Of a stretch of 64,000 bases of DNA, positions 33,895-36,582 are shown piece by piece (the stretch's first letter is position 1; every line of letters begins with the position of its first letter). The position numbers were made by a program, and so were the translations under genes. Source of the DNA: Bradyrhizobium diazoefficiens (GTDB lineage Bacteria; Pseudomonadota; Alphaproteobacteria; Rhizobiales; Xanthobacteraceae); assembly GCF_016616425.1 (NCBI RefSeq), contig NZ_CP067101.1:2046001-2110000 (forward strand), given 5' to 3'. The notes beneath the pieces are model-generated. The model saw only the letters and a program-made list of their open reading frames with translations. It was not told where the DNA came from and made no database searches.

Positions 33895-36582
33895 TCAGCT
33901 CGCCGCCGCTGCGATTTTGTGCTCCGGGCTGGCCTGGCCGTAGCTGCGCTCATCGCTACTGCTGATCTCGGACGGGAGCCCGGCAAAGCGCCGCAAGGCT
34001 GCCGCCATCTGCACCCGGCCCGGGACGCCGGTGATCACCACATCGACCATGGTGAAGGACGAGTGGAAATGGCCGCGCGCCCTGAGCTGCTCGACCGGAA
34101 CGCCTGCGGCCGCCATGGTCTCGGCGTAAGCGATGCCTTCGTCGCGCAAGGGATCGAACTCGCAGGTCACCACGAAGGCCGGCGGCAGGCCGGCAACGTT
34201 GCCGCGGAGCGGCGAGACGCGCGGATCGGTGCGGTCGGCCGGCGAGCAGTAGAGGTCCCAGAACCAGTACATCAGCGAGCGCGTCAGGAAGTAGCCGGTC
34301 GCATTGTCGTTGTAGGAGGGACGGTCGAAGGTGCAGTCGGTGACCGGGCAGACCAGGAGCTGGCCGGCGATGTCAGGCCCGCCACGGTCGCGCGCGAGCT
34401 GGCAGGTGACGGCGGCGACATTGCCGCCGGCACTCCAGCCCGCGACCAGCACCGGGCCCGGCTTGCCGCCGAGCTCGGTGGCGTGCTCGGCGATCCAGCG
34501 CGTTGCCGCATAGCCGTCTTCGGCAGCGGTCGGGAAGCGATGCTCCGGCGCGTGACGATAGCCGACGCTGACGAACATCATGCCGGTCCGCCGCACCATG
34601 TCGCGGCAGAACGGCTCGTCCGACTGCTCGTCGCCGAGCACCCAGCCGCCGCCATGGAAGTAGACCACGACCGGATGCGGTCCCGGTGTTGCCGGCTTGT
34701 AGACGCGGTAAGGCAGCGCGCCGTCGGTGACCGGCAGGGTGCCGTCGACGATGGCGCCGATCGGCCGTCCCGCGGGGCGGGCCTTGTTGAACTCGTTCAC
34801 GAACTCGCGCGCGCCGAGCGCGCCCATGGACTCGATCGGTGGCAGGTTCAGCGACGCGAGCAGGTTGAGCACCAGCCGCACGTCCGGCTGCAGCCGCACC
34901 ACCTCACCGTCATTGCATTGCACGGCGCCATCGGGTCCAGTGAGCCTGAAGCCGAGCATGCCGCGACTGACCACCTCGTCGCAGATGCTGCGATACGGAC
35001 CGACGCCGCCGGTATAGGGCATCAGGCCCTGCACCTTGCCGGGCACATTGGCGCCGGTGTACCAGGTGTTGGCGAGCCGGTGCAGTGTCAGCATCGAGCA
35101 GTCGGCCATATGCCTGTTCCAGCCGGCCTGCGCCGTCTCGGTCGGCTCGATCGTGGTGAAGCCGGCATCGCGCAGCGCAGCCAGGCGGTCGACCACCCAG
35201 TCGACATGCTGCTCGATCGACACTGCCATGTTCGACAGCACCGACGGGCTGCCGGGGCCGGTGATCATGAAGAAGTTGGGGAAGCCTTCGACCGTGAGTC
35301 CGAGATAGGTCTGCGGCCCGTTCGCCCAGACATCCGAGAGCGACTTGCCGCCGCGCCCGGTGATCGGATGCACGGCGCGGATCGCGCCGGTCATGGCGTC
35401 GAAGCCGGTCGCGAACACGATGACATCGACGTCGAAGCTGCGCTTGCCGGTCGCGATCCCGCCGGCGGTGATCGCCTGGATCGGCTCCTGGCGCAGATTG
35501 ACCAGCGTGACGTTCGGCCGGTTGTAGGTCGCGTAGTAATTGGTGTCGAGGCAGGGACGCTTGGCGCCGAAGGGATGGTCGTGCGGCATCAGCGCCGCGG
35601 CCGTTTCGGGATCCTTCACGGCGGCCGAGATCTTCTCGCGGATCAGATCGCAGATCAGCTTGTTGCCGTCGATATCGACCGCCTGGTCGGCCCAGAGCTG
35701 CGTCAGGATATAGACGAGATCGCCCTTGCCCCAGGCTTCCTCGAAGCGCGCGCGGCGTTCGGCATCGCTGAGCTGCCAGCTCACCGCCATCTGCTGCGGA
35801 TAGGGCACGCCGGCCATCGACTGGCGCGCCTGCTCGCGATAGGTCGCGCGGTCGCTTTGCAGCAGGCTCATGCGGTCGGACGGTGCCGGGCCGTTATGCG
35901 CGGGTAGCGCGAAGTTCGGGGTGCGCTGGAATACGGTCAAATGCGCGGCCTGCTCGGCGATCAGCGGGATCGACTGGATCGCCGACGAGCCTGTGCCGAT
36001 CACGGCGACGCGTTTGCCCGCGAGATTGACGCCGTCATGCGGCCAGCGGCCGGTGAAGTAGACCTCGCCCTTGAAATCCTTGACACCGTCGATCTCCGGC
36101 GGCTTTGGCGCCGAGAGGCAGCCGGTGGCCATGATGTAATGGCGGCAGGAGACCGGCGCGCCGTTATCGGTGGTGATGAGCCAGCGCTTGGCCGTTTCGT
36201 CCCATTTGGCTTCGGTGACCTTGGTCTTGAAGCGGATGTCGCGCCTGAGATCGTAGCGCTCGGCAACGAAGCCGAGATAGCGCAGGATCTCGGGCTGGGT
36301 CGCGTATTTTTCCGACCAGGTCCAGGCCGTCTCGAGCTCCGGATCGAAGGTGTAGCTGTAGTCGATGGTCTGGATGTCGCAGCGCGCGCCGGGATAGCGG
36401 TTCCAGTACCAGGTGCCGCCAACGTCGCCGGCCTCTTCGAGGGCGACGGTCGCGAAGCCGGCCTTGCGCAGGCGATGCAGAAGATAGAGGCCGGCAAATC
36501 CGGCGCCGACCACGGCGACATCGACCTGCTGAGCGGTTCCGCGCTCATCGGAGGCACGTGTAGCAATCATTGCGTCAGACAT
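33895..36582 (-). CDS. Fusion of a Baeyer-Villiger-type flavin monooxygenase and an HSL-type esterase
   Basis: An 895-residue natural fusion. Residues 1 to about 560 form an FAD- and NADPH-dependent monooxygenase: FAD motif VGAGFAGL near 25-32, [16 protein letters not shown], and NADPH motif [10 protein letters not shown] near 193-202. Residues about 600-895 form an alpha/beta hydrolase of the hormone-sensitive-lipase family: HGGGW near 642, nucleophile elbow GWSAGG near 717, Asp in FDPLRDEG, His in GHFHSSF. A BVMO inserts oxygen next to a ketone to give an ester, which the second domain could hydrolyse, so one polypeptide may convert a ketone to alcohol plus acid. The BVMO fingerprint FxGxxxHxxxWP reads F170-K-G...F176...W180-P, with Phe in place of His. 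A strong terminator follows. Confidence 0.92.

Follow-up and report, generated by a model that had tools for sequence, protein, structure and literature searches.

Organization of the locus

Within the window (the whole stretch of DNA analysed, 64,000 nucleotides in length), a single open reading frame encodes a type I Baeyer–Villiger monooxygenase (BVMO) joined to an HSL-type esterase (Table 1). The earlier note had placed two enzyme families in one gene, which is borne out by Pfam, NCBIfam and phmmer domain matches, and both its coordinates and the residue number 176 are correct by the open reading frame and the motif position. Pfam returns FAD/NAD Rossmann and FMO-like models inside residues 21–227 and Abhydrolase_3 at residues 639–841 (E 2e-75). 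In phmmer searches of PDB sequences, residues 13–547 match STMO (4ap3, E 4e-171), residues 11–548 match PAMO (1w4x, E 1.5e-166) and residues about 564–850 match HSL-type esterases, with Est8 at E 2e-77. An AlphaFold2 model built on a 58-row alignment attains a pLDDT of 90 and a pTM of 0.87, and in Foldseek its BVMO part matches PAMO with a TMt of 0.97 at 48% identity. The 50 best solved folds listed for the model are all BVMOs, so that the esterase fold rests on sequence. The genome carrying the fusion is a single contig of 7.14 Mb that also encodes an unfused BVMO of 50% identity to the fusion. A search of positions 33000–38000 against Rfam at gathering scores gave no match.

Table 1. Features of the fusion gene and of its product, in window positions
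Feature	Position	Strand	Remarks
BVMO–esterase fusion gene	33895..36582	(-)	895 aa + stop; ATG start, without internal stop
Likely ribosome-binding site GGGAGGA	36588..36594	(-)	Five bases upstream of ATG, by eye
Type I BVMO domain, residues 13–547	34942..36546	(-)	phmmer to STMO/PAMO; Foldseek to PAMO
BVMO fingerprint [A/G]GxWxxxx[F/Y]P[G/M]xxxD, residues 55–69, last = D69 (PAMO D66 position)	36376..36420	(-)	
Fingerprint FxGxxxHxxxWP, residues 170–181, F176 in place of His	36040..36075	(-)	
F176 codon	36055..36057	(-)	Calculated from residue number
W127 codon, clade marker often paired with His176 loss	36202..36204	(-)	
R342 codon (PAMO R337 position), within GAKRP	35557..35559	(-)	
Interdomain linker, residues 548–563	34894..34941	(-)	Limits from domain matches; spacing similar across clade
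HSL-type esterase domain, residues 564–850	34033..34893	(-)	
S717 codon, nucleophile in GWSAG	34432..34434	(-)	
D810 codon, triad	34153..34155	(-)	
H840 codon, triad; then S-S where most others have G-F	34063..34065	(-)	

Conservation of the fusion within the genus

Among 117 genomes of the genus, its own included, 95 carry a full-length fused match (at least 80% identity, reaching at least residue 870), five hold partial matches that end inside the esterase (at residue 614, 694, 719, 739 and 783), 16 have only weaker matches among those listed (best E 8e-190 to 4e-158) and one has none; a match at E ≤ 1e-150 is found in 116/117. The single-contig genome G054 has a frame of 827 in which the match stops at 783, short of D810 and H840. 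The earlier note had advised looking for a frameshift or sequencing junction between the domains in other strains, and such a break was sought; the full-length same-genus copies and the orthologues rule out an assembly joint or frameshift at that place. Pairwise Nei–Gojobori comparison of the window with six Bradyrhizobium orthologues gives dN/dS values of 0.10–0.21 for the BVMO domain and 0.10–0.28 for the esterase domain, indicating that both are kept under purifying selection, and residues 875–890 are looser (up to 1.9).

The matches in L015, G046 and G054 end within the esterase (at 693, 694 and 783), which perhaps reflects recent loss of the esterase half. Two genomes of the genus, G107 and G112, possess a second, distant fused copy (42–43% identity, residues 18–847) beside the usual one, and G398 has two copies (83% and 82%).

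Phylogeny and wider distribution of the fusions

A BVMO tree of 98 rows unites 20 fused rows and L032, a gene truncated by the end of its contig, in one clade with a support of 99 (the query clade). It contains rows from Bradyrhizobium, Vineibacter, Burkholderiaceae, Gammaproteobacteria, Mycobacterium, Pseudonocardia and other Actinomycetota, such that the clade spans Alpha-, Beta- and Gammaproteobacteria as well as Actinomycetota, and beside it stand the unfused or adjacent L039, L030 and L051. Among loci that exceed 80% BVMO identity to the query, this tree retains six next to the window and omits 20; it also omits L089–L101 of the window's own genome, of which L091–L093 are included in the esterase tree. 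Three more fusion groups appear, L036/L040/L119, L029/L031/L033 and the reverse-order L044/L120/L121 (support 99). The esterase tree (43 rows) returns the same groups, with 18 rows in the query clade (support 100; the esterase parts of L028 and L034 are cut by contig ends and absent from the esterase tables) and with the reverse-order group (support 95) nested in a group (support 100) that also contains adjacent genes with the esterase first. The trees place the same-order fusions apart, but a single clade of all of them is not quite rejected in AU tests (p 0.065 for the BVMO, p 0.056 for the esterase). By these trees and matches the fusion is old, conserved and common to distantly related bacteria.

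The 98 rows comprise 26 BVMO–esterase fusions, 3 esterase–BVMO fusions, 13 adjacent gene pairs (one overlapping) and 56 with neither, meaning no esterase match nearby in the available DNA (~1.5 kb on each side for genome-search loci, less at contig ends); coupling is therefore not obligatory. Beyond the genus, a set of 80 loci, the best of 589 stretches confirmed, includes 27 fused loci, 9 directly next to an esterase gene and 44 with neither arrangement, although this selection favours long matches and the share of fusions is not a frequency. In a draw of genomes from the window's own phylum, 26/398 match at E ≤ 1e-130. All ten of these that belong to the window's genus are fused, G148 has a fusion at 42%, 13 have BVMO matches alone, and the open frames in G420 and G434 (56%) run esterase first, BVMO second. 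In the phylum of G509 (Mycobacterium), a fused match at 56–58% identity is present in 6/396 genomes, G509 included.

Among the other groups, the Actinomadura-type L036/L040/L119 share the BVMO–esterase order, the Bacillota fusions L029/L031/L033 place the BVMO first and keep His176, and the reverse-order fusions (L044:5947-8493, L120:388-3135 and L121:430-3135) have V, I and V, respectively, at the position of the fingerprint His. That fusions occur in both orders suggests that the two activities go together.

G511 (Vineibacter terrae) has two fused copies (80% and 69%), and its genome gives nine other matches, seven of them BVMO-like and two esterase-like; contig 19 of G510 (Mesobacillus persicus) bears three BVMO-like genes in 34 kb, one of which is the fusion, and the fusion L034 lies on a contig labelled Bifidobacterium breve (MAG), which is odd for that genus and perhaps stems from a mislabelled bin.

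The BVMO half and residue 176

Both Rossmann motifs are present in the BVMO half (GAGFAG at residue 26, GTGSSA at residue 196). By printed alignment R342 corresponds to R337 of PAMO, and by motif position D69 corresponds to D66 of PAMO; these are the catalytic Arg and Asp of that enzyme, mutants of which are named in the titles of PDB structure matches. The fingerprint [A/G]GxWxxxx[F/Y]P[G/M]xxxD, a pattern given in PMC4498894, is matched by residues 55–69 and is found in 21/21 rows of the query clade and in 75/76 others. The second fingerprint, FxGxxxHxxxW[P/D], is broken by Phe at the His position, whereas its remaining fixed positions match in 21/21 clade rows. F176 aligns to residue 173 of PAMO, where STMO and PAMO both have His, in agreement with the replacement that the earlier note had read from the sequence.

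Across the query clade, His is found in 0/21 rows (16 F, 2 V, 1 S, 1 Y and 1 L), compared with 59/76 rows outside it, L039 being set aside. In the 98-row BVMO tree set, His is absent from 26/29 fused vs 13/69 unfused rows, one of the latter being L032, which is cut by a contig end. In the set of the 80 best loci, residue 176 is F in 16 fused loci, V in 3, H in 3, S in 2, L in 2 and Y in 1; where an esterase gene is adjacent it is H in 7, Q in 1 and R in 1, and where there is neither fusion nor adjacent esterase it is H in 38 and F, R and Q in 2 each. In a test on rows added later, the fusions L145–L149 also lack His (5/5; V, V, S, Y and F), and the unfused rows, some of which adjoin an esterase gene, have it in 21/25 and have lost it in 4/25. 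Taken with the clade rows, these later fusions imply that His has been lost clade-wide, F176 being one of the residues that replace it, and the ‘different subfamily’ suggested in the earlier note finds its counterpart here, as loss of His (to F, or to V, S, Y or L) marks a well-supported clade. His was likewise looked for in close relatives, and F176 is present in 27/27 same-genus orthologues examined; these orthologues and the clade-wide loss rule out a mutation private to this strain.

Fusion is at most a possible cause of His loss: the Bacillota fusions have His, the unfused L039 has F, and tree-corrected comparison leaves only 2 independent pairs on well-supported branches and 4 in total (p 0.5–1, non-significant, with too few pairs for power).

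Further BVMO columns specific to the query clade include W127, Y/H110, R245, D/E288 and L543. L543 is found in 19/20 readable clade rows, and in His-bearing rows outside the clade Glu is commonest at this position (33/59). W127 occurs in 27/39 non-His rows vs 2/59 His rows, and in all five of L145–L149; among the later unfused rows it is also found in 3/21 with His (L150, L162 and L165) and in 1/4 without. That W127 might compensate for the lost His is a weak idea, as tree-corrected pairs are too few and the later rows weaken the link.

The esterase half

The HGGG oxyanion motif, the defining motif of HSL-type (family IV) esterases, is present at residues 643–646, and the triad S717, D810 and H840 aligns with that of Est8 and others. 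The usual elbow of HSL-type esterases is GDSAG or one of the forms GTSAG, GESAG and GCSAG, for which NCBIfam has models, whereas the elbow of the window protein is GWSAG and its score of 331.5 bits compares with a cut-off of 350 for the NCBIfam LipP1 model. Query clade esterases have GWSAG in 17/18 rows and GYSAG in 1/18, while neither W nor Y is found in the elbow of 25 others (0/25), and H-x-S follows the pattern of the clade in the same way, standing after the catalytic His in 18/18 clade rows vs 0/22 readable others. The elbows of the other fusion groups are GDSAG or GESAG. The later fusions L145–L149 all possess GWSAG (5/5), with H-T-S in four and H-T-A in L148. Same-genus orthologues have GWSAG in 25/27 and H-S-S or H-T-S in 25/27, the two exceptions being L015, in which the match ends at 693, and L032, which is cut by a contig end. 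As read from these alignments, each half of the protein departs in an unusual way from motifs by which its family is usually recognised.

Proposed function

The fusion is probably a two-step enzyme that converts a ketone to an ester and the ester to an alcohol and an acid, as its likeness to characterised members of both families suggests. The N-terminal BVMO, dependent on FAD, NADPH and O2, would insert an oxygen beside the ketone to give the ester, and the C-terminal HSL-type serine esterase would hydrolyse the ester through S717, D810 and H840 to an alcohol and an acid, e.g. acetate. Given how closely the BVMO half resembles PAMO and STMO, the ketone is probably an aryl or alkyl methyl ketone. 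Fusion would hold the two activities at 1:1 and near each other, and hydrolysis of the ester would pull the reaction sequence forward. The clade-wide replacement of His, of which F176 is a form, is perhaps accommodated by local repacking, and we expect BVMO activity to persist without the fingerprint residue. We infer the reactions, the substrate class and the dispensability of His. As the same route is described or proposed for separate proteins, the fusion would remove from a ketone an acetyl or a longer acyl unit. It would then be a self-contained candidate enzyme for a conversion that cascade biocatalysis now assembles from parts, and the clade offers a ready-made natural test of the need for the fingerprint His.

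It is quite possible, though we lean slightly against it, that fusion does no more than fix the ratio of two ordinary enzymes and their joint expression, with F176 and GWSAG as neutral markers of the clade. The 13/98 rows in which BVMO and esterase genes are adjacent but unfused agree with such a role, and the losses of His in unfused rows (13/69, and 4/25 of the later ones), the tree-corrected pairs that do not show fusion and His loss to be associated and the His of the Bacillota fusions point in the same direction; against it, each active-site region carries a motif change that is kept in a clade across two phyla.

Substrate channelling, in which the ester would move between two facing active sites while staying within the protein, appears doubtful. 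The reverse-order fusions L044, L120 and L121 suggest that coupling needs no single geometry, even though the linker is short with similar spacing across the query clade, the pTM of 0.87 suggests a fixed arrangement of the domains, L543 at the BVMO end next to the linker is clade-specific, and so are motifs in both active centres. Doubtful to the same degree is the more far-reaching proposal of a distinct bifunctional subfamily whose two active sites were reshaped in concert once fused (His loss with W127 in one, GWSAG with H-x-S in the other), so that the nascent ester would be handed directly to a tuned esterase and Baeyer–Villiger catalysis would proceed in the absence of a supposedly essential residue.

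A change in BVMO chemistry on loss of His, whether towards another substrate, an uncoupled oxidase or sulfur/nitrogen oxidation, is improbable. The contrast between the clade and the rows outside it at residue 176 is compatible with such a change, and the first description of FxGxxxHxxxWP, that of Fraaije in 2002, reportedly found the motif critical for catalysis; however, the D66 and R337 positions of PAMO, both GxGxxG motifs and the other fingerprint are retained, and the solved folds listed as the 50 best are those of BVMOs. The retention of these other motifs implies that the His change may be structural only, and the ‘altered NADPH/oxygen chemistry’ of the earlier note has so far gained no support. 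Finally, a frameshift, an assembly joint or a decayed gene can practically be dismissed. A few copies are indeed broken within the esterase (L015, to residue 693, and the five partial same-genus matches), and of the six fused matches in the draw from the Mycobacterium phylum two, L145 and L148, contain a stop codon, but in these two an open frame still spans both domains (862 and 887 aa), the gene is full length in 95/117 same-genus genomes, dN/dS is well below 1 in both domains and the fusion recurs in the phylum of the Mycobacterium locus.

Relation to known enzymes

STMO (4ap3) and PAMO (1w4x) share the type I BVMO fold and most motifs with residues 13–547 (50% and 48% identity in structural matches), but their solved chains (549 and 542 residues) are without an esterase and have His at the fingerprint, unlike the fusion. 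Est8 (4ypv), EST2 (1evq) and the LipP1 family have HGGG and the catalytic Ser, Asp and His as in the fusion, which differs from them in its GWSAG elbow and in the S-S after the catalytic His. By sequence, modelled BVMO fold and catalytic residues, the protein belongs with both families despite failing one motif in each.

AcmA/AcmB, MekA/MekB and HapE/HapD are separate BVMO and esterase pairs of ketone breakdown. Separate BVMO and esterase routes are described or proposed for 2-ketones (SadD with SadA/SadB; PMC12753306) and for long alkanes (TOL_0709 and TOL_0906; PMC6304351), and in Sphingobium AntQ-1 a type I BVMO gene, reported with normal fingerprints, adjoins an epsilon-lactone hydrolase gene in a second BVMO–hydrolase cluster (PMC9836352). 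All of these systems have the same two activities, or are proposed to, but as two proteins. The same two families do share one chain in the fusion groups L029/L031/L033, L036/L040/L119 and L044/L120/L121, which occupy separate places in both trees. PMC9141793 and PMC7814890 concern engineered fusions or coupled enzymes, and a search of open-licence PMC literature gave, among the titles and abstract openings listed, no description of a natural BVMO–esterase fusion. At least one large BVMO survey accepted only sequences with a His-bearing fingerprint (PMC4498894), so that the query clade would be missed by a rule of this kind. Mascotti et al. also report no sign of BVMOs clustering by domain architecture (PMC4498894), which argues against architecture as a general mark of subfamilies. 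We judge as new a conserved and widespread fusion of two enzymes, each of which shows altered signatures; its component families are known, and it is a moderate surprise until assayed.

Gene neighbourhood

As a clue to the substrate the gene neighbourhood yielded nothing, as no pathway is common to the 14 flanking open reading frames of 11 other clade members. Divergent to the fusion and 565 bases apart lies a type-B carboxylesterase (window 37148-38611 (+), COesterase E 9e-98), and a similar carboxylesterase match adjoins the fusion in L010, L011, L103, L106, L108, L111, L113 and L115. Downstream of the carboxylesterase is a LigB-type ring-opening dioxygenase (window 38921-39751 (+)), and a putative SemiSWEET-type transporter, by eye, is encoded by an open reading frame of 124 aa at window 39764-40138 (-).
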